From: Lysinibacillus xylanilyticus
Lineage (GTDB): Bacteria; Bacillota; Bacilli; Bacillales_A; Planococcaceae
Length of the DNA: 64,000 bases
Direction of reading: 5' to 3'
NCBI RefSeq assembly: GCF_001708185.1
Contig: NZ_MDDN01000001.1
Location: 124,001 to 188,000 of the forward strand
A program made the translations under genes and the position numbers. Under the pieces are notes generated by a model. It ran no database searches. It was given only the letters and a program-made list of their open reading frames with translations, and was not told the origin of the DNA. The stretch's first letter is position 1; each line of letters begins with the position of its first letter. This document shows positions 11,988 through 49,327 of the stretch, piece after piece.

Positions 11988-12009
11988 AATAAGGTCTGAT
12001 TACCTTATT
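11988..12009 (-). terminator. Possible hairpin at the 3' end of the eut operon
   Basis: AATAAGGT and ACCTTATT form a stem overlapping the mdh stop. The T-run is poor, so it may be an mRNA 3'-end stabiliser and not a true terminator. Confidence 0.3.
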
Positions 12010-12953
12010 TAGATGTTTTGGCAAATTTGTATTACTTGATTGACGGCTTCTGCTGATTGATGGAGCGCCGTTTTTTCTTCATTTGTCAGGTGCAATTCAA
12101 TGACTGATTCAATGCCATTGCCACCTAATATTGTCGGTACCCCTAAAAATAAATCATGGTAACCATACTCACCTTCTAAAAGGGCGATAGAAGGAATTAT
12201 TTTTCGCTGATCTTTCATAATAATTTCTACCATTTGAGCACATGCTGCAGCTGGTGCATAATAAGCACTGCCATTCCCTAACAACCCAACAATTTCTCCG
12301 CCACCTTTACGTGTACGTTCTACGATTTGCTGCAGTCTGTCTTGCGGAATTAATTTTTCTAATGGGATACCCCCAGCATAGGAATATCGAATTAAAGGGA
12401 CCATTTCGTCGCCATGTCCACCTAAGACGAATCCTGAAACATCTTCTGGAGCAATTTGAAGCTCTTGTGCTACAAATGTATTAAAACGTGCTGTATCTAA
12501 CACACCTGATTGGCCAATGATACGATTTTTTGGAAAGCCTGTTTCCTTATAGCAAACATAAGTCATAGCATCTACAGGATTGCTTAATATAAGAACGATG
12601 CTGTTAGATGCATAGTGTTTGATTTGTTTAGAAACTTGTTGAATGATTTTCGCATTCGTCGTCACTAAGTCATCACGACTCATACCAGGTTTACGAGGGA
12701 TACCAGCTGTAATAATGACAATATTTGCTCCAGCTATATCCTCATAATTACTCGTTCCTTTAATGGAAACATTAAACTTTTCGATTGGTCCTGTTTGTAA
12801 TAAATCAAGCGCCTTTCCTTTTGTCGGATTTTCCGCTTCTGGAATATCCAACAGAACAACATCTCCTAGCTCTTTTTGGGCTAAAAATAAGCTTAATGTC
12901 GCGCCTGTATGACCAGCTCCGATCACAGCGATTTTACTTTTTCGAAATGTCAT
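12009..12953 (-). CDS. mdh: Malate dehydrogenase, last gene of the eut operon
   Basis: NAD-dependent oxidoreductase of the LDH/MDH family, 314 residues. It has the Rossmann motif GAGHTG (residues 12-17). The mobile loop [14 protein letters not shown] carries Arg in the position that favours malate/oxaloacetate over lactate. The catalytic His is in [10 protein letters not shown]. Its start overlaps the stop of the preceding shell-protein gene by one base (TAATG), so it is clearly part of the microcompartment operon, an unusual place for mdh. No encapsulation-peptide helix is seen at either end. It could recycle the NADH made by EutE by reducing oxaloacetate, since no alcohol dehydrogenase gene is present; that is inference. 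A housekeeping mdh is expected elsewhere. Confidence 0.9.
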
Positions 12954-13318
12954 TAAGCCTCACCTCGATTTTCAGTAGCAGCTGTTTCCGTCGTTTTTTT
13001 AGCACGCGTTGATGTTGTAGTCGGTGCTGGCTTTTTCTTTGGTGCTTCTGGTCCTTTAATCATTTGGAACACATCTTCATCAGGTCTCGGAATAACATGA
13101 GCGCCTAACAATTCACCGACACGCATTGCTGCGGCTTTTCCAGCTTCTACTGCTGCTTGGACAGAACCAACATCACCTTTCACGACGATTGTCACAATCC
13201 CACCATCAACAAACTCTTGCTTGACGATGGTTACATCTGATGACTTAATCATCGCATCAGCAGCTTCATAAGAGCCTACTAATCCTTTTGTCTCAATCAT
13301 TCCAATAGCGCTACTCAT
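12953..13318 (-). CDS. BMC-H shell protein with basic C-terminal tail (second EutM paralogue)
   Basis: Hexamer-forming microcompartment shell protein. The BMC domain (residues 1-90) starts [12 protein letters not shown] and contains the [13 protein letters not shown] core and a HVIPRP end, close to the EutM at 15618-15896. Unlike that one it has about 30 further residues rich in Lys, Pro, Thr and Ala, perhaps an exposed or lumenal tail that binds cargo or other proteins. ATG 13318 is chosen because GAGGTG lies 7 nt upstream; the frame extends further up but without support. It overlaps the end of eutN by 8 bases and the start of mdh by one. Confidence 0.9.
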
Positions 13319-13595
13319 TCTCTTCACCTCGCATAACTTCCGTAGAATCAATAATACCTATAACAACTGCATCGATAGGTAATGGATTGTCTGTCATAAT
13401 ATATCGTGATGATCCACCACTCGTAATGAGCACATCATCTCCAATTCCCGCTCCGATCCGGTCAGCTGCTACAATTTCTGTGCGAATCGGCTGTTGATTG
13501 GAATCGATTGGTTGAATGATTAATAATTTTAAGCCATTCAACCCTTCCTCTTTACGTGTTGCCCATACACTTCCTATCACTCTTCCCATCAGCAT
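13311..13595 (-). CDS. eutN: Pentameric vertex protein EutN/CcmL
   Basis: A small shell protein that caps the vertices of the polyhedral compartment. The BMV fold is indicated by GRVIGSVWATRKEEGL at the start, then LKLLIIQPID, VAADRIGAGIGDDVLITSGG and PIDAVVIGIID. Length, 94 residues, is normal. I chose ATG 13595 because GAGGG lies 8 nt upstream; earlier start codons overlap that site. Confidence 0.93.
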   Translation of the reverse strand: MLMGRVIGSVWATRKEEGLNGLKLLIIQPIDSNQQPIRTEIVAADRIGAGIGDDVLITSGGSSRYIMTDNPLPIDAVVIGIIDSTEVMRGEENE

Positions 13596-13628
13596 GAACA
13601 TCACCCTCTTTATTTTGCATGAACTTTT

Positions 13629-14498
13629 CTAATTACTAGAGCGAATTGTTAACGTTTTATTCAACTCTCTTATTTTGTCATAAGCCAATGCTGTCACAAT
13701 TGTTTTTTTAGGAACAACAATTTCCTTTGCTTCTATTTCAAGTACTTCTACCTGCGAAAGTAGCTTCTTATCAAAATGATAGATTGATGGTTTGTCAGCT
13801 TGACTTACGACTGGTGGGAGTTCTTTGATATTCATTTGTTCATTCGCTTGAGCATTGACCATTTCTGCAAAGGCACCTTGTTGGATTAAACCTGCATTTG
13901 CTTCATCTGTATCGATATGCATCTCCAATCGATAACGCTCAGAAACACGAATTATTACATTTGATAAAATAATGGGTCTTATACCCTCAACTTTGATTTG
14001 CACTGATTGTCCATCTGCTACTTGGAACCGAGCACTGTCAGCCGGTGACATATGAATATGAGCTTGCGCAATAATGAGTCCTTCATTTAACACGACACTG
14101 CCCTTTGGACCAATAAGTGTAACCGGGCTAGAGCCTTTTATATCTCCTGATACTCTTAAAGGTGGCTTAACCCCTAATTTCATTGCGTCTGTCCAGCTAA
14201 TTTCTACTTGAGATAATGAACGAGCTGGACCTAAAATGCGTACTCGCTCAATGGACCCCTTTGGACCAGCAATAACAACTGTTTCCTCAGCAGCAAACTG
14301 GCCTGGCTGTGAAAGCTCAAACTTAGGTGTTAATTGATAATTCTCACCAAAAAGCTGCTCCACTTCCGCTTGTGCAAGATGTACATGTCGTGCTGATACA
14401 CCAATAGGAATTTTTCCGTCATGTTGATGGGAAGGCTGATTTTTCAAGACTTGCTGCAATACTTCTTCAACAATTTTTTGGACTAAATTTTCTTGCAT
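13629..14498 (-). CDS. pduL: PduL-type phosphate acyltransferase with encapsulation helix and C-terminal extension
   Basis: It converts acetyl-CoA and phosphate to acetyl phosphate and CoA, recycling CoA inside the microcompartment. Two PduL beta-barrel domains are seen, with zinc-binding motifs SARHVHL (about residue 34), AQAHIHMS (about 142) and the MHIDTDEANAG end (about 194). The first 20 residues (NLVQKIVEEVLQQVLKN) form an amphipathic helix of the encapsulation-peptide type. About 75 residues after the core, ending IRELNKTLTIRSSN, are not part of the usual family and are of unknown role. Length is 289 against roughly 210 for a standard PduL. AAGGAGGAGG precedes the ATG. Confidence 0.92.
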   Translation of the reverse strand: MQENLVQKIVEEVLQQVLKNQPSHQHDGKIPIGVSARHVHLAQAEVEQLFGENYQLTPKFELSQPGQFAAEETVVIAGPKGSIERVRILGPARSLSQVEISWTDAMKLGVKPPLRVSGDIKGSSPVTLIGPKGSVVLNEGLIIAQAHIHMSPADSARFQVADGQSVQIKVEGIRPIILSNVIIRVSERYRLEMHIDTDEANAGLIQQGAFAEMVNAQANEQMNIKELPPVVSQADKPSIYHFDKKLLSQVEVLEIEAKEIVVPKKTIVTALAYDKIRELNKTLTIRSSN

Positions 14499-14510
14499 CT
14501 AACCTCCTCC

Positions 14511-15110
14511 TTACGTTAATGATCTAACAATTCTTCCTTGCGCTTGCTGTTCAATAAAGCCCGCGTTCGCTTCATCTGTATCGATATGCATCTCTAAACT
14601 AAAATCGTTCGACACACGAACTACGACCCCACGAAATGTCACCGGTCGCTCACTATCCACTTCAACACATACTAGTTCATTATTTTGTACGTCCAATGCC
14701 AACGCATCTTCTTCCGTCATATGAATATGTGCCTGTGCAATAATGACACCCTGCTCGATCATTATTTCTTTTTCTTGATTGATTAATTTGATGCCAGCTG
14801 AACTTTCGATATCACCCGATTGCCTTAAAGGAGGGGTTAATCCTAATTTCATTGCATCTGTTCGACTGATTTCCACCTGTGTTGCCGCTCTTACAGGACC
14901 TAATACACGTACATTGTGAAGGACACCTTTTGGTCCCTCAATGGAGACACGCTCTTTTGCTGCAAACTGGCCTGGCTGCGAAAGTTCAAAGTCCTTTGTT
15001 AGCGCTGCATTTGGACCAAAAAGTGCTTGTAAATCCTCTTCACTTACATGTATATGCCGAGCTGAAATGGCCACAGGAAATGATTTTGTCGCTGTTTTCA
15101 CGTTAGCCAC
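14511..15110 (-). CDS. pduL: PduL-type phosphate acyltransferase without encapsulation helix
   Basis: A second acyltransferase gene directly upstream of the first. It carries the same motifs: ISARHIHVS (about residue 15), AQAHIHMTEEDA (about 125) and MHIDTDEANAG (about 177). Length, 199 residues, is that of the core enzyme. It has no N-terminal targeting helix and may work outside the shell or be carried by its partner. The frame begins at GTG 15110; GTG 15101 has the better spacing (8 nt) from GAGG and may be the true start. A 21-bp repeat array and a 500-bp gap separate it from eutM. Confidence 0.92.
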   Translation of the reverse strand: MANVKTATKSFPVAISARHIHVSEEDLQALFGPNAALTKDFELSQPGQFAAKERVSIEGPKGVLHNVRVLGPVRAATQVEISRTDAMKLGLTPPLRQSGDIESSAGIKLINQEKEIMIEQGVIIAQAHIHMTEEDALALDVQNNELVCVEVDSERPVTFRGVVVRVSNDFSLEMHIDTDEANAGFIEQQAQGRIVRSLT

Positions 15111-15190
15111 CTCTATATCTTCATTACTGTTGAAAATGAATGGGCAGGATGAGGCACAATGTGATGCATCCTGCCCTTCCGTTTATGATG

Positions 15191-15602
15191 TTCTTTCCGT
15201 TGCTTTGATGATTCTATCCGTTGGTTCGACTTTTCTTTCCGTCGGTTCGGAGCTTCATTCCGTCGCTCTGGCTTTTCTTTCCGTCGGTTCGGAGCTTCTT
15301 TCCGTCGCTCTGGCTTCTATCCGTCGCTTCGGCTTTTCTTTCCGTCGCTCTGGCTTTTCCTTCCGTCGCTTCGGCTTTTCTTTCCGTCGTTTCGGGCTTT
15401 CTTTCCGTCGCTCTGGCTTCTATCCGTCGCTTCGGCTTTTCTATCCGTCGCTTCGGTTCTTCATTCCGTCGTTTCGGACCTTCTTTCCGTCGCTCTGGCT
15501 TCTATCCGTCGCTTCGGCTTTTCTTTCCGTCGTTTCGGACTTTCATTCCGTCGCCCTGGCTTCTTTCCGTCGCTCCAGGGTTTCTATCCGTCGCTTTAGC
15601 TC
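15191..15602. repeat. 21-bp tandem repeat array inside the eut operon
   Basis: Twenty degenerate units: sixteen of 21 bp and four of 19 bp, which add up exactly to 412 bp. The plus-strand consensus is about TTC(T/A)TTCCGTCGCTTCGGCTT. The array fills most of the 507-bp gap between the eutM stop and the pduL start. The 19-bp units break the triplet frame and no ribosome site serves it, so long plus-strand reading frames through it are not credible genes. It will be transcribed as part of the eut mRNA as repeats of GCGACGG/AGCCGAAG type. Role unknown. Confidence 0.9.
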
Positions 15603-15617
15603 TTCTGTCTTTAAAAT

Positions 15618-15896
15618 TTAAGCTTCTGCTTTTGGTAAAATCATTTCTAATTCATGGTGTGGACGTGGGATTACATGTACTGATAAAAGTTCTCCTACAC
15701 GTTGTGCCGCTGCAGCTCCTGCATCAGTAGCTGCTTTTACTGCGCCTACATCACCACGAACTAATACAGTAACAATACCGCCACCAACATGTACTTTTCC
15801 TACTAAATTAACGCTAGCAGCTTTCACCATTGCATCTGCTGCTTCAATTGCTCCTACAAGTCCTTTTGTTTCTACCATTCCTAATGCTGTACTCAT
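15618..15896 (-). CDS. eutM: Major hexameric shell protein EutM
   Basis: It has 92 residues and a single BMC domain ([43 protein letters not shown]). It forms the flat hexagonal tiles of the microcompartment wall. TTGGAGG is placed well before the ATG. It lies between eutE and the repeat array. Confidence 0.96.
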
Positions 15897-15912
15897 TTGT
15901 CATTCCTCCAAA

Positions 15913-17400
15913 TTATTTATTTAATGTTATTTGTTTTAATACTTGATCCACAATTTGCTGCACCATCGCTGTATCAATAGATGCATCTTGTTCCTTGATA
16001 CTTTCTACAACTGGATTTGTTAAGAATTCTGGTTTTGGCACCTCTACATCTTTAATGCCATAAGCCATACGTTTAATATTTAATAAATGTCTCGCTGTAA
16101 TGTTATCGGACGTAATATTACCACCAAACGTGCCGCATCCTAATGTGAAGGAAGGTGCTAATCCAGTAGTTCCACCAACAGCTCCAATAGAAGATAATGT
16201 GTTGATCACAATTCTGGACACTGGCAATTCAACTGAAAACTGCTCAGCTAAAGCCGCATTTTCTGTATGAATCGAGCATGTATGACCGCGTCCACCAATG
16301 TTTAGTAAATCAATCATCACTTGTTTTGCCTCTGTGCTGTCCTCGACTGTGTATAATGCAAATATCGGTGACAATTTTTCAAGTGAAAATGGAATGTTTT
16401 TGCCAATCATTGTTTCCATCCCAACGAGTACTTTCGTATCTTCTGGCACGGTAATACCTACAGAATCCGCTAAGCATGCAGCTGATTTCCCTACAATTTG
16501 AGGATTTACTTTTCCTGGGATAGGAGAAATTAGCTTCTCCATCTTCACCTTCTCTTCATCACTCAAAAGATAAGCACCGTTTTTCTTTAACTCTGTTAAC
16601 ACTTGCTCTGCAATGACTTTATCTACAATAATGGATTGTTCCGTTGCACAAATTGTGCCATTATCAAAAGATTTACTTTGTACAAGCTGACGAACAGCCT
16701 TAGAAATATTAGCTGATTTTTCAATGTAAGCCGGAACATTTCCTGGTCCTACACCGTAAGCAGGTTTACCTGAACTATAGGCTGCTTTCACTAGCGCACC
16801 GCCACCAGTCGCTAAAATCAAATGAATATCTGGATGCTTCATTAGTTGCTGTGTAGCCTCCATAGAAGACATCGTTAAACAGTGTAGCAATCCTTCTGGT
16901 GCTCCTGCTTTTTCTGCAGCAACTCTACAAATCTCTAAAGCTTCCTTTGTACAGTCGACCGCATAAGGATGTGGGCTTAATACTAGAGCATTTCTAGTTT
17001 TCAATGAAATAAGTGTTTTAAAGATTGCTGTTGATGTTGGATTTGTCGTTGGGACAATGCCCGCGACCACGCCAAACGGACTAGCGATCTCTGTAACTTT
17101 TTTCATGCGATCGAAACCTACAACACCAACTGTCTTTAAATCTTTTATATCTTCGTAGACATCTCGAGAGGCAACCTCATTTTTCATTTTTTTATGATTA
17201 GGTATACCCATCCCTGTTTCCTGAACGGCCATATTTGCCAAACGTTCTGCTTCTTTAAATGCGGCATCAGCAACAGCTTTGACGATACTATCTACTTGCT
17301 GCTGTGAATACTGCATGTAAGCAGCCTGTGCAAGATTGGCACGTCTCACGGCGTCTCTCATTTCTTGAATTGCTAATAAATCTTTATCTAATGTGGCCAT
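15913..17400 (-). CDS. eutE: Acylating acetaldehyde dehydrogenase EutE
   Basis: It oxidises acetaldehyde to acetyl-CoA with NAD and CoA inside the compartment. The protein has 495 residues of the aldehyde dehydrogenase superfamily. The catalytic Cys is in FDNGTICATEQS and the GVGPGNVPAYIE nucleotide-site region is present. The last 25 residues (DTAMVQQIVDQVLKQITLN) form an amphipathic helix typical of an encapsulation peptide, here at the C-terminus, after a linker. AAAGGAGGGG precedes the ATG. EutL lies 14 bp upstream. Confidence 0.95.
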   Translation of the reverse strand: MATLDKDLLAIQEMRDAVRRANLAQAAYMQYSQQQVDSIVKAVADAAFKEAERLANMAVQETGMGIPNHKKMKNEVASRDVYEDIKDLKTVGVVGFDRMKKVTEIASPFGVVAGIVPTTNPTSTAIFKTLISLKTRNALVLSPHPYAVDCTKEALEICRVAAEKAGAPEGLLHCLTMSSMEATQQLMKHPDIHLILATGGGALVKAAYSSGKPAYGVGPGNVPAYIEKSANISKAVRQLVQSKSFDNGTICATEQSIIVDKVIAEQVLTELKKNGAYLLSDEEKVKMEKLISPIPGKVNPQIVGKSAACLADSVGITVPEDTKVLVGMETMIGKNIPFSLEKLSPIFALYTVEDSTEAKQVMIDLLNIGGRGHTCSIHTENAALAEQFSVELPVSRIVINTLSSIGAVGGTTGLAPSFTLGCGTFGGNITSDNITARHLLNIKRMAYGIKDVEVPKPEFLTNPVVESIKEQDASIDTAMVQQIVDQVLKQITLNK

Positions 17401-17414
17401 AAAGCCCCTCCTTT

Positions 17415-18065
17415 CTATACAACTGGGTTTCTCGCTAAATTCTCAATAGCTTCTCTAAAAGCATCTGCTGCAGCTTGGCAGGAAGATTGGCTACCACTTA
17501 ATAAACCGCCACCGTAATTGGTTTCAGATGGTGGACCAAAGAAAACCTTTAGCTCTACATCTGCCGACTTTAATGCAGCATCTAATCCAACAACAGCCTC
17601 AAGTGGTGGTGCTATTAAATAGGCAAGAGCAGTTCCAGCCTTAACATTCGCCAACTCTGCCAGATACGTACCACAGCTTGCTACAGTATGTGCAAAGAGA
17701 GCGTGGTTTTCATTTTGAAGAATAGCTTCAAAATACGCATCAAACTGAATTTTCTGCTGAATCGCATCTAAACCACTACGTATTTCATCAGGCGAGCTAC
17801 CAGCAATGATGCCAATGACCTCACCAGATAATGGCCCAGATGCATGTGCCGCTCCAGCATAAAAGCTTTTTGCGTAAACAACATCAACATCTGCTTTTTT
17901 CGTCGCTTCATCTAATGCTACATATCCAACATCATCTATTGTGAGAGTTACGAGTCCAATGCTATTGTGATATGGCTTTAAATCTAATTGCTCTGCTAAT
18001 TCACTATTTACTCTTGGAATGATTTGCATTGCCAAAATTTCAGCCATAATTTTTTGAGGATTCAT
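17415..18065 (-). CDS. eutL: Trimeric tandem-BMC shell protein EutL
   Basis: It has 216 residues, the usual family length, with two permuted BMC domains forming pseudohexameric trimers with a gated central pore. Key segments are IIPRVNSELAEQL, KSFYAGAAHASGPLSGEVIG and FFGPPSETNYGGGLLSG. It is thought to let large cofactors such as cobalamin pass. AGGGGG lies 7 nt before the ATG. Confidence 0.95.
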   Translation of the reverse strand: MNPQKIMAEILAMQIIPRVNSELAEQLDLKPYHNSIGLVTLTIDDVGYVALDEATKKADVDVVYAKSFYAGAAHASGPLSGEVIGIIAGSSPDEIRSGLDAIQQKIQFDAYFEAILQNENHALFAHTVASCGTYLAELANVKAGTALAYLIAPPLEAVVGLDAALKSADVELKVFFGPPSETNYGGGLLSGSQSSCQAAADAFREAIENLARNPVV

Positions 18066-18076
18066 TGTTTGGCCCC

Positions 18077-19108
18077 CTAACCTTCTTTTGCCACAAGACC
18101 TACTCCACTTGCCTTGTAATGCAATATTTTTTGAACGACTGTTCCTAAATAAGCACCTGCCTCTAATGGCGGGATACCACCTTTATGGATGTTCGAAACG
18201 ACCATTCGATCAGCTTCTACTGTGCCAATTCTAGGTTGATAGCATATATAGGCACTCATTGACTCAGCTGATACAAGTCCAGGACGCTCACCGATTAAAT
18301 ACACGATGACCTCTGCTTGTAAAAGCTCGCCTATTTCATCCATTAGTGCTACACGCCCTTTATCAATATAGAAGGTAGTTCCGATTTCAATCTTTAAATT
18401 ACTCAGACTTTGCTGTAACGCTAAATAAACATCTTGCACATTCTCTTCAATCGCACTAGCGCTTAATCCATTAGAAATAATGATTTGTACTTTAGGATTT
18501 TTTTGGCATTTCGATTGAAGAAGTGCCTTCGATTCATCTGATAAACGGCGACCTAAATCCGGTCTAGTAATGTATTCTTCCTTATCTGTCACTTTAGTTG
18601 TTACTTGAAAGACGTTAAGCTTTTGTAATAGCTCTTCTGTCACTTCTCCATATACTGCATCAACTGCCGCTGCGTGATCGAGTCGGAATTTCAGCCAAGT
18701 TTTTGTTTTTGGTCTTGTCCCAGCTCTCCCAACACCTATTCTTGCTGGTGTATGTTTTTTAGCAGCTTGGACACTTTCAGACACTTCATCCTCTTCAAAT
18801 TTAAATTCTGTGATAGGTACTGAAGTATAAGTCGATTCATCATTACTTGCGCTGTAATATGATTGTTCATGATTACTTGATTCACTATGATAAAGTTTAA
18901 TTAATGGTTCATTTGATTGTTCAATTGTGCTCGGGCTTACTACTTCATCAGCATAATTAGCATTAGCTACCGTATTGTGAAACTTAATAAGTGTTTCCTT
19001 TTGGTTTTCTGTTGGCACAGCTGTATCATGATAAGATTTGTCTGACGCATTATTGCCCATCTTTTCCATAACTAACTGTGTAATCATCGAAACTAGTTGT
19101 TCATTCAA
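18077..19108 (-). CDS. eutC: Ethanolamine ammonia-lyase small subunit EutC with long N-terminal extension
   Basis: It forms, with EutB, the adenosylcobalamin-dependent enzyme splitting ethanolamine to acetaldehyde and ammonia. The conserved domain begins near residue 125 (ARIGVGRAGTRPKTKTWLKF) and runs through VYLIGERPGLVSAESMSAYI to the end. The first 20 residues (NEQLVSMITQLVMEKMG) form an amphipathic targeting helix; a low-complexity Ser/Glu/Thr linker of about 100 residues joins it to the core and is longer than in most EutC proteins. The start is uncertain: TTG 19108 is best spaced from AGGTAGG, which lies in the end of eutB; GTG 19117 is possible. Confidence 0.93.
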   Translation of the reverse strand: MNEQLVSMITQLVMEKMGNNASDKSYHDTAVPTENQKETLIKFHNTVANANYADEVVSPSTIEQSNEPLIKLYHSESSNHEQSYYSASNDESTYTSVPITEFKFEEDEVSESVQAAKKHTPARIGVGRAGTRPKTKTWLKFRLDHAAAVDAVYGEVTEELLQKLNVFQVTTKVTDKEEYITRPDLGRRLSDESKALLQSKCQKNPKVQIIISNGLSASAIEENVQDVYLALQQSLSNLKIEIGTTFYIDKGRVALMDEIGELLQAEVIVYLIGERPGLVSAESMSAYICYQPRIGTVEADRMVVSNIHKGGIPPLEAGAYLGTVVQKILHYKASGVGLVAKEG

Positions 19109-19117
19109 TGGATTCAC

Positions 19118-20482
19118 CTACCTTTCAAATATAGATAAATCGCCAGCTCTTGCAGATAGACGACCATTTTCATAAATGCCCATTTTTTCTAACCATGCTA
19201 GATATTCAGGAGCTGGTTTTTTACCAAACGTTTGAAGTAATGTTGCGACGTCATGGAAGCTCATTGACTGATAGTTCAGCATAACATCGTCGCCCATAGC
19301 TGCAGCGATAATAAAGTTGACACCTGCTGCTGTTAGTAAAACACTTAAATCTTCAATATCATTTTGGTCTGCCTTAATATGGTTCGTGTAACAAATATCC
19401 ACGCCCATTGGGAGACCGTGCATTTTACCCATAAAGTGATCTTCAAGGCCCGCACGTATAACCTGCTTGTTATTGTATAAATACTCAGGTCCAATAAAGC
19501 CAACAACGGTATTCACAATATACGGATTAAAATGTCTAGCAAATCCGTAATTGCGCGATTCGAGCGTTACTTGGTCAATGCCCATATGTGCCTCAGCAGA
19601 TAGCTCCGAACCTTGTCCTGTTTCAAAGTAGAATAAGTTCGGGCCAGTTCCTGTTCCATGCTTTTTCACAAGCTCCTCTGCTTCTTTTATTAGGTCAGCA
19701 GAAATACCGAACGAGCGATTAGCAATTTCCGTTCCAGCAATACTTTGGAAAATCATATCGGCTGGTGCACCTTGTTTAATGGCTTTCATTTGTGTTGTAA
19801 TGTGTGCTAATACACAGTTTTGTGTAGGAATCGACCAATCATTGATAAAGTCCTTTGTCGCATGCAATACTTTTTTCACACTTTCAACAGAATCATCTAC
19901 TGGATTAATACCAATAACCGCATCACCAATACCATAAGACAATCCTTCTTTTAACGAAGCAATAATACCGTCAATATTGTCTGTTGGATGATTTGGCTGC
20001 AATCTCGAGGAAAGTGTGCCTTTTTGTCCAATCGTAATATTGCAAGTCGACAGTATTTCTACTTTATTGGCAGCATGGACAAGATCTAAGTTGGACATAA
20101 GCTTTGTAACGGCCGCAATAATTTCTGAATTCATGCCCTTGCTTAATCGTTTTAATTCCCGGTCGCCTGTTTCATTGGATAAAATATATTCTCTTAGCTG
20201 CTCGATACTCCAGTTTTTAATTTCTCCATAAATTTGCTCATTAATATCACCTTCAATAATGCGTGACACTTCATCATTCTCTTGAGGAACTAATGGATTT
20301 TCTCTTATATCTTTTACTAACAGCTCGCTTAAAACAGCCTTTGCTGCAATTCGCTGCTGTACAGATTCAGCTGCAATGCCAGCTAGCTGATCACCTGATT
20401 TTTCTTCATTGGCTTTGGCCATTACATCTTTTAATGAATTAAAATTATATTTTTCTCCACCAAATATCACCGATAATTTCAC
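19118..20482 (-). CDS. eutB: Ethanolamine ammonia-lyase large subunit EutB
   Basis: The catalytic TIM-barrel subunit that binds ethanolamine and the B12 cofactor. About 454 residues, full length. Recognised segments are LFGG/VIFGGEKYNFNSLKDVMAKANE at the start, then STCNITIGQKGTLSSRLQPN, NPVDDSVESV, FYFETGQGSELSAEAH and MGVDICYTNH. Two starts are possible: ATG 20488 abuts the GGAGG, whereas GTG 20482 is 6 nt away and gives the usual family N-terminus, so I prefer GTG. EutA ends 5 bp upstream. Confidence 0.96.
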   Translation of the reverse strand: MKLSVIFGGEKYNFNSLKDVMAKANEEKSGDQLAGIAAESVQQRIAAKAVLSELLVKDIRENPLVPQENDEVSRIIEGDINEQIYGEIKNWSIEQLREYILSNETGDRELKRLSKGMNSEIIAAVTKLMSNLDLVHAANKVEILSTCNITIGQKGTLSSRLQPNHPTDNIDGIIASLKEGLSYGIGDAVIGINPVDDSVESVKKVLHATKDFINDWSIPTQNCVLAHITTQMKAIKQGAPADMIFQSIAGTEIANRSFGISADLIKEAEELVKKHGTGTGPNLFYFETGQGSELSAEAHMGIDQVTLESRNYGFARHFNPYIVNTVVGFIGPEYLYNNKQVIRAGLEDHFMGKMHGLPMGVDICYTNHIKADQNDIEDLSVLLTAAGVNFIIAAAMGDDVMLNYQSMSFHDVATLLQTFGKKPAPEYLAWLEKMGIYENGRLSARAGDLSIFER

Positions 20483-20493
20483 ATTCATCCTCC

Positions 20494-21918
20494 TTACTTT
20501 GAGTGGAAAGCAAGTGTTTTTACAACGACCGGGACTACACCAGATGGTAGTACTTCCCCAATGTCAATATAATCACCCGTTTCAACTTTGATTTGATCAA
20601 TGCAAATAATGTGAACTGTTGGATTCAGTGCTTGAATCGTTTGCCCAATAATCTTTGCATAATCTGATTGAATGACTATGATAATTGGTATTTCCTTGGA
20701 GCTTCTCGTTGCTAAGTGCTGCAAAATGGCTTTACTTATTGCGTGGACATCTTGAAAACTTAAATAAGGTAACTGACTAAAATAGAGTGCAAATGGAGAG
20801 CGATTCTCTTGTGTAGAAAATAAAGCATCGGCTCGTTCTACAGCTGTCTTTATCGTATAGTCGAACTTATTTTTGTCCGTGTCCATATAGCAATTGAAAA
20901 CAGGCACATTTTTTAAAGGCAATACATCCGCATCAACCTGGATTGTTGCACCACTAATTTCAGTTATTTGGGTACCTGCACCCGTCACTGTTGCCCGTGC
21001 TGTTTCCTCTGGCTTTAGCCATAAAAAGGATTGCAATTGCTCGTGCTGTAAAAGACTTTTTGCTAATCTTTCGCCGATATCATCATACTGGCGTTTTGTG
21101 CAATCATTTTCATAAATACAGGCTGCTACTCCACCAGAAAAGACGACTGCTTCAACTGGTTTATCCCAAGTTGGCAAATGCCCTAACAATAACGGATGCT
21201 CTTCATCTGTTAATTGTCCACTTAGCGTCATCGCTAATGTCGTCACCATTTCTTGGATAAGTTGTGTGACACGAGCATCCTCTGCTGAATCACCAACTTT
21301 TAATGGATTTGACCATTTTTCCATAAGTTTCATAACCGGTGGTGAAATCGAATGGACAATTCCGTTCTGAAATTCTATTAGTCTTCCACCGACATGCAAT
21401 GTACACGTACCAATTACTTCTCCGAACTGCATGACCGCAATATTTGCTGTTCCACCGCCGATATCGATATTGGCAATTACTTTGGCAGTATTTTTAGACT
21501 GTTGTACGGTACCTGCACCCTTTGCGGCAATGATGCCTTCCAAATCGGGACCAGCAGTGGCCACTAAAAAGTGTCCGGCTGTATCTGCAATCGCATGAAC
21601 AACCTCGCTGGCATTTTCCTTTGTTGCAGATTCGCCTGTAATAATAATGGCACCCGTTGATATGTCTGCTGGTGCAATTTGGGCCAATTGGTATTGCTGA
21701 AAAATAAATTGTTCAATTTTTTCCATATCGATTATTTCTTTATTGATAAACGGTGTTTTAATAATAGGACTTTGATGTAGTACCGTTTTTTCAATAATTT
21801 CTATCCGCGGCACATGTGTTACACCAGCAACATTTTTCAACAGAAAACTACTGACAACCATTTTTGTTGTACTTGTACCAATATCAATGCCTGCACTATA
21901 AATTTTTTCTGTCTTCAA
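20494..21918 (-). CDS. eutA: Ethanolamine ammonia-lyase reactivating factor EutA
   Basis: An ATP-dependent chaperone of the actin/Hsp70-like fold that replaces damaged cobalamin in EutBC. It has the phosphate-1 motif AGIDIGTSTTKMVVS near the start and a second nucleotide loop in NIDIGGGTANIAVMQFGEV, with VVFSGGVAACIY later. The start is set at TTG 21918 because GGGAGGAG lies 5-7 nt upstream; a longer frame from GTG 21939 begins before that site and overlaps the eutP stop. Confidence 0.94.
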   Translation of the reverse strand: MKTEKIYSAGIDIGTSTTKMVVSSFLLKNVAGVTHVPRIEIIEKTVLHQSPIIKTPFINKEIIDMEKIEQFIFQQYQLAQIAPADISTGAIIITGESATKENASEVVHAIADTAGHFLVATAGPDLEGIIAAKGAGTVQQSKNTAKVIANIDIGGGTANIAVMQFGEVIGTCTLHVGGRLIEFQNGIVHSISPPVMKLMEKWSNPLKVGDSAEDARVTQLIQEMVTTLAMTLSGQLTDEEHPLLLGHLPTWDKPVEAVVFSGGVAACIYENDCTKRQYDDIGERLAKSLLQHEQLQSFLWLKPEETARATVTGAGTQITEISGATIQVDADVLPLKNVPVFNCYMDTDKNKFDYTIKTAVERADALFSTQENRSPFALYFSQLPYLSFQDVHAISKAILQHLATRSSKEIPIIIVIQSDYAKIIGQTIQALNPTVHIICIDQIKVETGDYIDIGEVLPSGVVPVVVKTLAFHSK

Positions 21919-21938
21919 TTTACTCCTCCCTCTCGCCA

Positions 21939-22436
21939 CTAATGGCTATACATGAGATAAGGACTATCACGATCCTTCACAAATTGACGAATTTCTTCGT
22001 CAGACTTGAGCTGAATAAGTGGTGCAATAAACTCAATACCTAGCTTTTGCCACGAAGAGGTTTTCACAATAGGACCATGTGTCATGACATTTTGTAATAA
22101 CGCTGTTGCTCTTTCTACATCTGCAAGAGGTGCATCAATTTTTGTAATGACACCAATTTGAATTTTCGGAATTCCTAAGCTAAATTGCGGTGGAAAAACA
22201 CTCTTTGGTGACGTGGCATCCTGCAAGTAAATCACATGTGTCACTTCAAGCGATGTTGCCATAATGTTTCTGTAATACATCGGATTTTCTATATATTCTC
22301 CAGGTGTATCGACAATCCAGTCATCATAAACGAGTGCCTGTGTTTTATTGGCTTGTCCATCTTTCCCCAATAACGCATTCATCAGTGTCGACTTCCCTGC
22401 TTGCACACCACCTATGATCATTACTCGATTTTTCAT
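21939..22436 (-). CDS. eutP: EutP/PduV-type small GTPase-like protein
   Basis: About 165 residues with a P-loop GGVQAGKSTLMNALLG near the start, DTPGEY (switch/Walker B region) and TKID (base recognition). In other species EutP has been reported as an acetate kinase or a compartment-associated GTPase; which applies here is not known. ATG 22436 follows AGGA by 8 nt and is preferred over ATG 22445. Confidence 0.92.
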   Translation of the reverse strand: MKNRVMIIGGVQAGKSTLMNALLGKDGQANKTQALVYDDWIVDTPGEYIENPMYYRNIMATSLEVTHVIYLQDATSPKSVFPPQFSLGIPKIQIGVITKIDAPLADVERATALLQNVMTHGPIVKTSSWQKLGIEFIAPLIQLKSDEEIRQFVKDRDSPYLMYSH

Positions 22437-22446
22437 ACGGCACATC

Positions 22447-22788
22447 CTATGACTTAGTTATTTTTGATGGCGTATAGCCTAGCATCTCTGATAAAAAACG
22501 ATTAATTTCTAACATCGCCATTTCAACCTCTGACACACTGCCAACAATAACGAGACTGCCAGTAAAGCGATCTAAAAATCCTAGTCTTACATTGGCTGCC
22601 TTTGTTGCTAAATCACCTGCGATAATAACTGTTTCACTCGGTGTACATGTCATGATGCCAAGTGCACCCGCTTCTTGAATGCCTAGCTTTTGAAACATAT
22701 CAGGGTCAGGATTAGCTATTAGATGGCTCAATGTTAGTTGCTTACCGGGCACAAACTCCTGAATAAACCGTTTCTTCTCTTCACTCAC
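22447..22788 (-). CDS. eutS: Hexameric shell protein EutS
   Basis: It has 113 residues and a circularly permuted BMC domain: IQEFVPGKQLTLSHLIANP, then GIMTCTPSETVIIAGDLATK and RFTGSLVIVGSVSEVE. EutS tiles are bent and may set shell curvature; in other systems its N-terminus carries targeting information. The start is GTG with GAGGTGATG upstream. Confidence 0.94.
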   Translation of the reverse strand: MSEEKKRFIQEFVPGKQLTLSHLIANPDPDMFQKLGIQEAGALGIMTCTPSETVIIAGDLATKAANVRLGFLDRFTGSLVIVGSVSEVEMAMLEINRFLSEMLGYTPSKITKS

Positions 22789-22817
22789 ACGTCATCACCT
22801 CTTTTAGGTTTATTTAC

Positions 22818-24062
22818 TTAAGACTTTTGATCTGTTAGATATTCACCTTCTTTAATAATGCCTGCCTCGCGATCCTCTTGTTCTAGCCTTAAAGCTGTTG
22901 GAACAGATAACTTATAGGCTAAAATAATAGCGATCACACCCGCTAAAAACTTACCAGCAATAACAGGTAAAATAATGGTCGGCTGGAAATTCGCTGTAAA
23001 GGATAAATGATCTCCTAGAAGGAATGCTGAACAAACACCAAAGGCAATGTTAATAACTTTATCTTTCGGTGGCATATGTCGAACGAGTGTAAACATGGCC
23101 AAAATATTAGCAATTGTCGCTAAAAGACCTGCGCTTCCTACTGACGATAAGCCTAATTTTTTACCTAGTGCTTCTAGAGGTTTCGATGCATATTTTCTGA
23201 TCAAATACACCATTGGGAATGCACCCGCTAGCATAATACCGATATATCCAGCCGTTTCTAATGCACGGAATTGATCGACTTTATCTGCCATGATTGGATC
23301 AAAGCCCCATGCACCAAAGACCTTTGTAAAAATACCTGTGAAAATTTCTACAATCGAGAACACTAGCACAAGCTTGATAGCAGCATCCATCACACGTCCA
23401 AAAATCATGAAGCCTTTGATCATGCCATTTGGAATTAGCTTGAGACCTAACGCAATTAACACGACGAAAATAAATAAAGGCAATAAATTAATTAGTATTT
23501 GTAAAACTGAAATGGCAAAAACATATGTTGGTTCCGCTGTTGTACTAATCACTTCACGAACCTCTGTATTAAACGTCACAATCATGATGGAAGAAATAAA
23601 TGCGCCAATCGGAATTGTTAAAACACCCGCCATAATACCTAAAGCCATATATTTATGATCACGCTTATCTAACATGGCAAGACCCATTGGAATAGAGAAG
23701 ACGATTGTTGCACCGGACATAAATCCGACAACTAGAGCCATGACCCATCCTTCATAGGACTCTTTTAATGCATTTGCTAATTGATATCCTCCCATGTCCG
23801 AAGCTAAAATTGTCGTTGCCGCAATGGCAGGATCAGCACCAATCAACTCAAAAATTGGACTAATAAAATGACTTATAAACCACGTTAAGTAAGGTATAGC
23901 TGCCATGATCCCTGCAGCAGGTACAAAAATATGTCCAACCGTATGAATACCATTCATAAACTCTTTACCGATACCATACTCAGCATCCCGAATTGCTCCG
24001 ATTGCCCCTAAAACTGCACATATCATAATAATATAAACGATTACCGTTCCTATCATTGCCAT
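22818..24062 (-). CDS. eutH: Ethanolamine permease EutH
   Basis: An integral membrane transporter with about 10-11 predicted helices, which brings ethanolamine in when the external level is low or the pH acidic. Conserved text includes NGIHTVGHIFVPAAGIMAAIP, ASDMGGYQLANALKESYEGW and GDHLSFTANFQPTIILPVI. The reading frame extends 29 codons further up, but that part lies in the terminator hairpin and has no ribosome site; ATG 24062 (or 24056) behind GGGGTGGTGAG is the likely start. About 415 residues, normal. Confidence 0.93.
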   Translation of the reverse strand: MAMIGTVIVYIIMICAVLGAIGAIRDAEYGIGKEFMNGIHTVGHIFVPAAGIMAAIPYLTWFISHFISPIFELIGADPAIAATTILASDMGGYQLANALKESYEGWVMALVVGFMSGATIVFSIPMGLAMLDKRDHKYMALGIMAGVLTIPIGAFISSIMIVTFNTEVREVISTTAEPTYVFAISVLQILINLLPLFIFVVLIALGLKLIPNGMIKGFMIFGRVMDAAIKLVLVFSIVEIFTGIFTKVFGAWGFDPIMADKVDQFRALETAGYIGIMLAGAFPMVYLIRKYASKPLEALGKKLGLSSVGSAGLLATIANILAMFTLVRHMPPKDKVINIAFGVCSAFLLGDHLSFTANFQPTIILPVIAGKFLAGVIAIILAYKLSVPTALRLEQEDREAGIIKEGEYLTDQKS

Positions 24063-24099
24063 CCTACTCACCACCCCTTTATTTTTTATCTTTCTATAT

Positions 24100-24143
24100 G
24101 AAAAAAGACGCATTAAAGAGAAAATCTCTTTAAAGCGTCTTTG
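24100..24143 (-). terminator. Intrinsic terminator between eutV and eutH, probable antitermination control point
   Basis: On the minus strand an 18-bp near-perfect stem (AAAGACGCTTTAAAGAGA with TCTCTTTAATGCGTCTTT, 3-nt loop) is followed by TTTTTTC. It starts 3 bp after the eutV stop and ends before the eutH ribosome site, so it would stop transcription before all structural eut genes. EutV belongs to the ANTAR family, which binds RNA and prevents termination at such sites; this is the natural target. I could not identify the paired hexaloop hairpins with confidence. Confidence 0.85.
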
Positions 24144-24145
24144 CT

Positions 24146-24724
24146 TCAACTATTTACTTGTAAAGTATTGATAATGCGCCTTGCAATAAGCACCATTTCC
24201 TGTTGAGTCTGCATACTCTCACTTCGAATTTTTTTATAAGCCTCGTCCTCACTAAGATTTTCTGACTGCATCAGCAAACCTTTTGCGCGTTCGATTATTT
24301 TTCGCTTTTCTAATTCTGTTTGTTTATGCAGCAAATCCCCGTTAAGACGGTTGAACTTATCAATTTGATGAAAAGCTACTTCCAACGCTGGAAGGACATT
24401 TTTCTCAGAAAACGGTTTCATAACATAGCCTAAAATATTGTCCTGCTTCATGTATAATAACAATTCTTTTTCACTATAAGCTGAAATAAATAGTACCGGT
24501 ATACCGACCTGTTGTTCGATAATTTTACTTGCCTTTAAACCATCCAGCTTTGGCATTTTAATATCCATTAAGATTAACTGAGGCTTATGTGTAAAAGCCA
24601 ATTCAATTGCTGATTCTCCATTATTCGCTTGTGCTACCACTTCGTAGCCGTTATCTTCTAGCATTAACTTCAAATCCATCGCAATTAGTGACTCATCTTC
24701 GACAATCATAACTTTCCTAGTCAT
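24146..24724 (-). CDS. eutV: ANTAR-domain response regulator EutV
   Basis: The receiver domain (residues 1-120) has the phospho-acceptor Asp54 in LILMDIKMP and the conserved SAYS/KPFSE ends. A coiled-coil helix follows, then an ANTAR RNA-binding domain (residues 135-190: KRKIIERAKGLLMQSENLSE, then DEAYKKIR). When phosphorylated by EutW it binds nascent RNA and prevents terminator formation. It overlaps the end of eutW by 8 bases, and a terminator follows at once. Confidence 0.95.
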   Translation of the reverse strand: MTRKVMIVEDESLIAMDLKLMLEDNGYEVVAQANNGESAIELAFTHKPQLILMDIKMPKLDGLKASKIIEQQVGIPVLFISAYSEKELLLYMKQDNILGYVMKPFSEKNVLPALEVAFHQIDKFNRLNGDLLHKQTELEKRKIIERAKGLLMQSENLSEDEAYKKIRSESMQTQQEMVLIARRIINTLQVNS

Positions 24725-26159
24725 TTAGGATAAATACCTCCTCACTTACAGGAAACTGAATTTGAGTATGTGTACCTTTTTCACTAGGGATAATTGTAAA
24801 TGTGCCAGCTAAATCATATTCAACAAGCCTTGTAATAATCTCCATTCCAAATGATGCCTTCACCTCTTGCATTCCAACGCCGTTGTCAGAAATATGAAGT
24901 GAAATAGTGGAAGCATCCTGCTGAAATTGTATATCGATTGTTCCCTCCTCACGACCAGTAAAAGCATATTTCAATGCATTTTGCAGTAGCTCACAAATGA
25001 TTAACGCGAGCGACACAGCTTTTTTAGCATGACAAAATAGTTGTACATTATCGTGATGAAAGGTTAATTGAATAGACGGTGTGTTGGATGTCCCAACCAT
25101 TTTATGTCCAATCTTTTTAGACAACGCGATAACGTCTACTTTCTCTTCAGCGTTATCCTCATTTTCTAAAATAAGTTCATAGACAGATGAAATACTATAT
25201 ATTCGATTTAAAGCTTCTTGAAAAGCACTGGCATTCGCAGCTGACAAATCATTTCGCATTTGCAAACGTAATAAGCTTGTAACTGTCTGTAAATTGTTCT
25301 TCACACGATGGTGAATTTCTCTTATTGCAAAAGTTTTCATCATTAGTTCATTTTCTTTTAGCTTAAGCTCTGTAAGATCATGAATCATGAGAAGTGTCAC
25401 TTTATCATTTTGACTGCGAATAGGAATTTTCTTTACAATAAAGGATTTACGATCAATCGTAATTTCTAAGAAAAAGACATCATCGCCTTTATCATAGACT
25501 TCCTGTAAAAAAGGTAAAATCTTATTCAATGCAACGTTGTCAAAACGTTCTAGCCCCGATAGCTCTGAAATAAATCGGTAACCTGCAGGATTGCTATAGA
25601 TGACTTTGTTTTCATGATTTGTGAGAATAATTGATTCTTCTAACAAATCAGAAACGACTGGAATCGGTTGATAATTGTGCTCTACGCTATGCTCAATTAA
25701 CGCAAATGGCATATTCCGAAAATCATCTTTAGGTGTTGTTTGCATCTCTACCTTTTTTTCCTGTATTAACACTGCAATGACCTGTTGTTGATCATTAAAG
25801 AGAGGGATAACGTTTTGTTCAACAGTTATTCCTTCCTGTGTGATTGCTCTAGTAATTGACGATTTTTCTTTATGTTTAAAAGAAGCAAATACTGCTGGTT
25901 CAAAGCTTTCAAATACAAATTTGCCAATTACGGATTTTTCGTATAAGCTCTTTTCTTTTTTTGGGAATGCCTCTGCCACAACAATTGCATGCGGTAAGTT
26001 TTCCATCATACAATCTATGAACATATAACAATCTGTCAACTCAGCATAATATGTTAGTGTAGCTTCTATTTCTATTAACTTTTCTATATCTGTTGTAGAT
26101 AAGTTCGTAAATTTTCTACACAATGATTGAATGTTCGACAGGTTCAAACCCCCTATCAC
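24717..26159 (-). CDS. eutW: Sensor histidine kinase EutW
   Basis: A soluble kinase of 480 residues sensing ethanolamine. An N-terminal sensory region (two PAS/GAF-like parts, residues 1-270, the second with TNHENKVIYSNPAGYRF) is followed by the H box REIHHRVKNNLQTVTSLLRLQ (phospho-acceptor His) of the HisKA_2 type and an HATPase domain (ELLQNALKYAF, DNGVGM). The start is not secure: GTG 26159 has no ribosome site, while an AGGGGG a few bases inside would fit a rare start (TTG or CTG at codons 5-7). It heads the eut operon. Confidence 0.92.
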   Translation of the reverse strand: MIGGLNLSNIQSLCRKFTNLSTTDIEKLIEIEATLTYYAELTDCYMFIDCMMENLPHAIVVAEAFPKKEKSLYEKSVIGKFVFESFEPAVFASFKHKEKSSITRAITQEGITVEQNVIPLFNDQQQVIAVLIQEKKVEMQTTPKDDFRNMPFALIEHSVEHNYQPIPVVSDLLEESIILTNHENKVIYSNPAGYRFISELSGLERFDNVALNKILPFLQEVYDKGDDVFFLEITIDRKSFIVKKIPIRSQNDKVTLLMIHDLTELKLKENELMMKTFAIREIHHRVKNNLQTVTSLLRLQMRNDLSAANASAFQEALNRIYSISSVYELILENEDNAEEKVDVIALSKKIGHKMVGTSNTPSIQLTFHHDNVQLFCHAKKAVSLALIICELLQNALKYAFTGREEGTIDIQFQQDASTISLHISDNGVGMQEVKASFGMEIITRLVEYDLAGTFTIIPSEKGTHTQIQFPVSEEVFILND

Positions 26160-48876: not shown

Positions 48877-49327
48877 GCCCATCACCAAAAGTTGTGGATG
48901 ACATTTGTTAAAACATATACTATGTAAATAAGTTGATTGGAGTGGAGGCTGGTTGACTCCTTGGGGATTAGCGAAAGAGGGACGAAGGCTAAAACCATCA
49001 CGTCCTGTGATAACGCCTTCGTGACCAACATCCTTTTGCCCCAAGCGGCTCATCGGACGCCCCGCTTTGCTCTGTGCGAAAACGTAGCGACAGCAACAAG
49101 GTTTTATCTGTGCGAAAGCGAAGCGTCAGCGGCAAGGTTTTATCTGTGCGAAAGCGAAGCGTCAGCAACAAGGTTTTATCTGTGCGAAAGCGAAGCGTCA
49201 GCAACAAGGTTTTATCTGTGCGAAAGCGAAGCGTCAGCAACAAGGTTTTATCTGTGCGAAAGCGAAGCGACAGCAACAACAAAGCGCCCAGTCGGAACAG
49301 AAATCAACCACACGTTTTGGTGATGAA
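48877..49327. mobile_element. MITE-like element with terminal inverted repeats
   Basis: Left end CATCACCAAAAGTTGTGG (48880-48897) and right end CCACACGTTTTGGTGATG (49308-49325) are imperfect inverted repeats of about 18 bp. An exact 11-bp direct repeat CCTTTTTATGG flanks the element (48866-48876 and 49328-49338), as a target duplication would. Inside are TTGATTGGAGTGG near the left end, AAATCAACCA near the right end, and the 36-bp repeat array. I see no transposase or credible gene. The reading frame through the array (LCESEASATRFY repeats) has no ribosome site and looks like chance from a repeat length divisible by three. The inner part resembles a GTTGATTGGAG-type palindromic repeat that I recall from Bacillus genomes. 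Confidence 0.6.
49072..49280 (+). repeat. 36-bp tandem repeat array
   Basis: Five full units and one partial, from 49072 in steps of exactly 36 bp. Part of the unit is CTGTGCGAAAGCGAAGCG; the rest is TCAGCAACAAGGTTTTAT. Units 3-5 are identical; units 1 and 2 and the last differ by a few bases. No spacers, so not a CRISPR array. Confidence 0.92.

Follow-up and report, generated by a model that had tools for sequence, protein, structure and literature searches.

An ethanolamine operon ending in a malate dehydrogenase gene

We analysed a 64,000-nucleotide stretch of the genome of Lysinibacillus xylanilyticus (contig NZ_MDDN01000001.1, positions 124,001 to 188,000), called the window below and numbered from its first base. 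On its minus strand, at 12009-26159, lies a 16-gene ethanolamine utilization (eut) operon for a bacterial microcompartment (BMC), in the order EutW, EutV, EutH, EutS, EutP, EutA, EutB, EutC, EutL, EutE, EutM, PduL1, PduL2, EutN, BMC-H2 and malate dehydrogenase (MDH). The set, order and extent of the genes are those given by an earlier reading of this DNA (the original prediction). Genes were assigned with NCBIfam models at the cut-offs of each family, and domains at Pfam cut-offs:

12009..12953, minus: mdh, NAD-dependent malate dehydrogenase, 314 aa, final gene of the operon (TIGR01763, 467.1 bits; cut-off 351.85)
12953..13351, minus: BMC-H2, the second BMC-H shell protein, its C-terminal tail rich in Lys and Thr (BMC domain above the Pfam cut-off)
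13311..13604, minus: EutN/CcmL-type BMC-P vertex protein (CcmL best, EutN second, both below cut-off)
13629..14498, minus: PduL2 phosphotransacylase with an N-terminal encapsulation-peptide-like helix (NF011652, 271.4 bits; cut-off 209)
14511..15110, minus: PduL1 phosphotransacylase, without the N-terminal peptide (NF011652, 260.3 bits; cut-off 209)
15111..15617, no strand: eutM-pduL1 gap, no annotated gene on the operon strand; degenerate 21-bp tandem repeat, about 19 copies, at 15212-15596
15618..15896, minus: EutM, BMC-H shell protein (EutM family the best match, below its cut-off)
15913..17400, minus: EutE, CoA-acylating acetaldehyde dehydrogenase with a C-terminal encapsulation-peptide-like helix (TIGR02518, 617.9 bits, just under the cut-off of 620.1)
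17415..18065, minus: EutL, BMC-T shell protein (TIGR04502, 349.4 bits; cut-off 300)
18077..19117, minus: EutC, ethanolamine ammonia-lyase small subunit (NF003971, 299.0 bits; cut-off 230; match from residue 107)
19118..20488, minus: EutB, ethanolamine ammonia-lyase large subunit (NF011649, 673.1 bits; cut-off 554)
20494..21939, minus: EutA, reactivating factor (EutA the best family, 434.3 bits, below its cut-off)
21939..22445, minus: EutP (EutP the best family, below its cut-off)
22447..22788, minus: EutS, BMC-H shell protein (133.1 bits; cut-off 123)
22818..24149, minus: EutH, ethanolamine transporter (NF011668, 704.4 bits; cut-off 575)
24146..24724, minus: EutV-type response regulator (receiver and ANTAR domains above Pfam cut-offs)
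24717..26159, minus: EutW-type sensor histidine kinase (PdtaS-type GAF and HisKA_2 histidine kinase domains above Pfam cut-offs)

Of the EUT core, both ammonia-lyase subunits with EutA, the acylating aldehyde dehydrogenase and a phosphotransacylase are present and the alcohol dehydrogenase is missing; the shell set comprises three BMC-H proteins (EutM, EutS, BMC-H2), one BMC-T (EutL) and one BMC-P (EutN). The true start of BMC-H2 probably lies within the listed open reading frame (ORF), giving a protein of 121 aa that begins MSSAIG. Base 12953 both ends the BMC-H2 stop codon and begins mdh, which bears out the predicted one-base overlap. As a conserved trait the overlap was dropped, being present in only 31 of 104 measured loci (starts estimated). 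EutC has an N-terminal extension of about 100 residues that opens with an encapsulation-peptide-like helix; all such helices were judged by eye. An Rfam scan for RNA regulators gave a single match, far below its gathering score. Promoter-like sites are fewer than in shuffled sequence (33 vs 46.8), the best one lying upstream of eutW, and terminator-like sites number 16 vs 10.3.

The locus contains no iron-containing alcohol dehydrogenase (Fe-ADH, the EutG type) in a scan that did not extend to Zn-type alcohol dehydrogenases; the four Fe-ADHs of the genome that exceed the cut-off are all elsewhere. Nor does it contain EutT: the genome has two adenosyltransferase-family matches, both on other contigs. 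We call EutQ absent on the ground that all minus-strand ORFs of at least 70 aa in the locus are accounted for by the 16 named genes, no family search for EutQ having been made. The predicted lack of EutG, EutQ and EutT thus agrees with what we see.

By its predicted gene content the locus is of the EUT2 type rather than EUT1, with PduL replacing EutD and a two-component system replacing EutR. Judged by the published description of the subtypes, it appears nearest to EUT2C: as far as the accessible text of PMC4207490 goes, EutG occurs within EUT2 only in EUT2A, and only EUT2C lacks both EutT and EutQ. EUT2C-like loci share with the window EutABC, PduL instead of EutD, a two-component regulator and the lack of EutG, EutT and EutQ (PMC4207490, accessible text). 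The Listeria type, EUT2A, has the same signature enzyme and shell classes; however, it has an Fe-ADH in place of the MDH of the window's group, and EutT and EutQ are reported in the EUT2 subtypes other than EUT2C. The original prediction knew no standard eut locus built in this way. For the missing genes this does not hold, since their lack is already described (PMC4207490, accessible text). That text names no malate dehydrogenase for EUT loci, while its supplementary Dataset S1 could still list one. Our search by titles and abstract openings, with most subscription journals and supplements outside its scope, returned nothing about MDH in an EUT locus.

Distribution of the malate dehydrogenase gene among BMC loci

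We examined eut loci in three samples that overlap in genomes. In the window's family, 38 of 151 genomes have EutB, and 40 EutB loci were fetched from the 37 besides the window's own (two second EutB copies of a 57% type, in G102 and G133, are not among them). When a locus with EutE and at least three shell types is taken as shell-bearing, MDH is present in 36 of 36 shell-bearing loci and in none of the four without a shell, one of which (L107) has a single EutM-like gene within its 20 kb. In a named set, the best 80 of 471 loci, MDH occurs in 68 of 72 shell-bearing loci and in none of the eight shell-less or partial ones. The four exceptions are L156, whose contig ends inside the locus, L181 and L182 of Aneurinibacillus, and L187 of Fictibacillus gelatini. 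The eight are partial L154 and seven Peribacillus-type loci. These seven (L163, L169, L170, L173, L174, L176, L178) consist of eutWVHABC without shell, EutE, PduL or MDH.

For the class, 65 of 398 genomes have EutB; we took the best locus from all 55 outside the family and a second one from G457, which makes 56 distinct loci after an overlapping duplicate (L232) was dropped. Among the 47 shell-bearing loci, 24 have MDH, eight have an Fe-ADH (L311, L312, L314, L317, L323, L325, L338, L339), 15 have neither and none has both. None of the nine shell-less or partial loci has MDH. The association of MDH with a shell has a Fisher p-value of 0.007, kinship ignored, or 0.008 if L242 is counted as shell-bearing; this locus, counted as partial, is a shell-bearing one cut by the fetched stretch, with no MDH visible. 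Taken over the three samples, the shell-less or partial loci number 21 (4 + 8 + 9), and none of them has MDH. MDH therefore follows the shell, EutE and PduL, not the lyase or EutABC alone. In the rearranged operons L183-L185 it again follows a BMC-H gene.

The original prediction had proposed looking for mdh beside shell genes in other Bacillales; the same order with mdh last recurs in many genomes, so its position is not due to chance. Together with the family scores, this conserved order rules out chance or misannotation as an explanation of the mdh-ended operon. The design is common in Bacilli and not peculiar to the window genome. A search of the loci with the four Fe-ADHs of the window genome as queries found none in L068-L187 and eight in other loci; no locus holds both MDH and an Fe-ADH, Zn-type enzymes again lying outside the search. 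Beyond Bacilli, 32 of 36 EutB-bearing genomes of a phylum sample were tested, all new to the analysis (G852, with a weak partial match, was left out). An LDH/MDH-family match is present in 14 of the 32, in no case near EutB.

Additional MDH copies led to a different BMC locus, of which we have eight examples (L298-L304 and L306). They were reached from a third MDH in each of G033, G093 and G115 (window's genus) and of G134 and G094 (a different genus of its family), and from other MDHs of G141, G331 and G258. The locus occurs in the window's genus, in its family and in other Bacilli. All eight contain EutE, PduL, several BMC-H genes, EutN and MDH, and MDH follows a BMC-H gene except in L303, where it lies between BMC-H genes. 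In six of them (L298, L299, L300, L302, L303, L304), inspected as far as the 20-kb stretches reach, each adds parts of a further gene set: a DeoR-type regulator, a class III aminotransferase-like enzyme, a kinase-like protein, an ethanolamine permease, a HAD hydrolase and a small protein whose N-terminus is an encapsulation-peptide-like helix, with a short-chain dehydrogenase as well in L298, L299 and L303. Examples are L300:97-11261 and L299:949-10397. Family searches covered L300 and one protein of L299, and the aminotransferase and kinase fell below the cut-offs of their best families. Such loci apparently encode a kinase and phospho-lyase route to an aldehyde, B12-independent, for an aminoalcohol or ethanolamine. 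MDH can thus pair with another signature pathway, at a frequency that these loci do not allow us to infer. The RMM locus of Actinobacteria has in common with them an aminotransferase, a phosphotransferase, a permease and in some cases a short-chain dehydrogenase. In the accessible text of PMC4207490, however, RMM has no obvious recycler of NAD+ or CoA, whereas the second Bacilli locus has PduL and MDH, and also a DeoR-type regulator in stretches long enough to include it.

Small proteins of about 90-115 aa that open with an encapsulation-peptide-like helix lie near EutE or shell genes at L183:5058-5354, L185:782-1078 and L300:5508-5789; the two that were searched gave no NCBIfam match.

The locus enzyme, its paralogue and their phylogeny

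The locus MDH scores above the TIGR01763 malate dehydrogenase cut-off and below the cut-offs of the LDH models. When 56 locus MDHs (without the f22 rows described below, L238 and L239) were compared with 47 MDHs encoded next to icd, 85 positions were invariant, among them R87, R93, D153, R156, H180 and D36. We take these to include the catalytic, specificity and NAD-binding residues, R87 being the Arg at the specificity position. Family score and active site both agree with the predicted NAD-malate dehydrogenase with a malate-type Arg.

The window genome (4.76 Mb, 48 contigs), whose EutB matches that of Lysinibacillus xylanilyticus at 99%, has a second MDH, 65% identical to the first and encoded directly after icd. 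The locus gene is therefore an extra copy, a paralogue, and the possibility singled out by the original prediction, that it is the only housekeeping MDH of the genome, is excluded. In 20 of the 80 named genomes we counted copies: each of the 15 that carry a locus MDH also has a second one of at least 60% identity, and the other five have exactly one MDH. Of the 90 short MDH stretches that were tested, 64 contain icd, and at least 14 of the 90 are locus copies again. With the exception of G140, every genome with a locus copy has at least one further MDH/LDH-family match (some counted without a listed identity).

A quick tree of 118 MDHs places 46 of the 47 icd-linked sequences in a single starred clade, which also takes in three locus MDHs, all of family f22 (which we call Brevibacillus-like, presumptively). 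A careful tree has 71 rows, 68 of the 118 and three added f22 sequences, with several long branches, including L238 and L239, left out. Its starred clade of 39 rows (support 98/90) consists of 33 icd-linked and six f22 locus MDHs. The remaining locus and unlinked MDHs are on one side of an unstarred branch (support 97/62). They may form a clade or a grade, because the branch is unstarred and the root was not inferred. The original prediction had suggested a tree to see whether the locus copy forms its own clade: most locus MDHs do lie outside the icd-linked clade, but f22 lies inside it. A constraint that joins all locus and unlinked MDHs is rejected (log-likelihood lower by 65, AU p 0.0001), which argues that MDH entered BMC loci at least two times, once from the housekeeping gene in the Brevibacillus-like family. 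L238 and L239 (52-55% identical) may represent a third recruitment. On the EutE tree, the MDH state has to change five times and the ADH state once.

A possible role in NADH reoxidation

We propose that the dedicated MDH is the NADH-reoxidising core enzyme of the ethanolamine metabolosome, in the place that EutG holds in EUT1 and EUT2A, and put the probability of this at roughly one half. Going by family membership, EutBC would produce acetaldehyde, EutE would convert it to acetyl-CoA with formation of NADH, and PduL would yield acetyl phosphate. MDH would reduce oxaloacetate to malate with the NADH from EutE and return NAD+ to EutE, from a position that may be in the lumen, on the shell or beside it. 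Outside the shell, malate might be reoxidised by the icd-linked MDH or by malate:quinone oxidoreductase (Mqo), which is encoded elsewhere in the genome, as are isocitrate lyase and two adenosyltransferase-family genes. The MDH pair would then act as a malate-oxaloacetate shuttle that exports reducing power and spares the carbon that EutG would turn into ethanol. It is tempting to go further, with appreciably less confidence and odds below even, and to suppose that this redox shuttle works across the protein shell itself, malate leaving through shell pores to be oxidised outside, and that it was recruited at least twice and in two BMC types.

Several observations weigh against such a role. The MDH has no encapsulation peptide at either terminus, unlike EutC and PduL2 (N-terminal) and EutE (C-terminal), and by that criterion does not count as a BMC cargo protein. 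In a set of 139 MDH ORFs, drawn almost wholly from BMC loci and including duplicated genomes, 105 leave just 10 residues before the glycine motif even from the most upstream start, so that there is no room for an N-terminal peptide, and four leave at least 25. The comparison of 56 locus with 47 icd-linked sequences gave no cleanly diagnostic residue, position 61 alone passing an 85% rule, and residues specific for targeting were sought there without a convincing candidate. The 15 of 47 shell-bearing loci of the class with neither MDH nor Fe-ADH (contig ends cut L310 and L315) indicate that MDH is not obligatory; for this reason, and for want of the peptide, a role in the lumen is putative. The mutual exclusion of MDH and Fe-ADH carries little weight because the Fe-ADH loci group in a single clade of the EutE tree, amounting to about a single event, and as statistical proof it was given up. 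The MDH content of the second type of locus is biased, since these loci were found through MDH. Finally, G140 has the locus copy as its sole MDH, and four genomes of one genus (G001, G020, G038, G054; L200-L202, L305) lack EutB and have a single MDH each. Three of these MDHs were placed in the tree, where they group (unstarred) with the eut-locus lineage, and none was found beside icd, as if the eut-type MDH had replaced the housekeeping gene there. The locus-type enzyme can therefore serve the general tricarboxylic acid (TCA) cycle.

The chief rival reading is that the MDH is a cytosolic helper, co-expressed with eut, which never enters the shell and turns malate into oxaloacetate for the uptake of acetyl-CoA or acetate by the TCA and glyoxylate cycles. 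The missing peptide, an active site that cannot be told apart from that of the housekeeping enzyme and the solitary copy of G140 all speak for it, as does isocitrate lyase, whose presence makes growth on C2 units plausible. Shell-less eut loci should gain equally from such a helper, yet they show no MDH; the gene remains beside the shell/EutE cassette in rearranged operons and also in the second BMC type; and all genomes with a locus copy other than G140 show another MDH/LDH-family match. We consider the helper rather unlikely; a core enzyme that reoxidises NADH, putatively in the lumen, accounts better than a general TCA helper for the association of MDH with shell, EutE and PduL. That an alcohol dehydrogenase encoded elsewhere reoxidises the NADH of EutE, with MDH as a minor or redundant passenger, would accord with the 15 class-sample loci without either enzyme and with the four Fe-ADHs outside the locus. 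Three of these four, however, adjoin genes that we take to belong to other pathways (resembling betaine-aldehyde dehydrogenase, 3-hydroxybutyrate dehydrogenase and glutamate dehydrogenase), so that only the one at C12:585932 stands without such neighbours, and a mere passenger is unlikely to have persisted in dozens of species and to have been recruited on two occasions; we find this explanation improbable. The LDH/MDH superfamily changes substrate easily, and the enzyme might act on a different 2-oxo or 2-hydroxy acid. Given the invariance of R87 and the catalytic residues in the 56 locus and 47 icd-linked sequences and scores above the MDH but below the LDH cut-offs, this is very improbable.

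For the proposed NADH-reoxidising MDH there is a precedent in kind. In the PVM microcompartment of Planctomycetes and Verrucomicrobia, which serves aerobic breakdown, a lactate/malate dehydrogenase is predicted to recycle NAD+; the likeness is one of description, and the signature enzyme there is an aldolase for fucose and rhamnose, unlike that of the window locus (PMC4207490, accessible text). The eut version appears to be new within the literature searched. In Listeria, part of the published account describes electron transfer to iron as another outlet for surplus NADH (PMC8547011), which suggests that compartments may solve this problem in several ways. The accessible text of PMC4207490 does not settle by what means a metabolosome that lacks an alcohol dehydrogenase regains its NAD+, or even whether it has to; for Bacilli, a conserved, shell-tied and repeatedly recruited MDH offers one concrete answer. 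If true, it would explain ethanolamine use without loss of carbon as ethanol and provide a natural core module for engineered compartments, and the shuttle would be a bacterial-organelle counterpart of the mitochondrial malate shuttles.

A few further features were noted. Residues 221-279 of PduL2 form a weakly PduM-like C-terminal stretch (PduM model, E 6.6e-06, below its cut-off), and separate weakly PduM-like proteins are encoded near the same place in Aneurinibacillus, Fictibacillus and Calidifontibacillus. The 21-bp minisatellite of the eutM-pduL1 gap (GACGGAAAGAA...) varies in length, with 35.6 copies in L069, 10.6 in L068, 5.7 in L108 and 3.6 in L116, and for several of the 12 loci examined TRF reports none at the corresponding position. 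Elsewhere in the window, short tandem repeats with GGAAAT/AACGG-rich units lie at 40429-40530, and a 36-bp tandem repeat of 5.8 copies, 95% alike, lies at 49071-49279.

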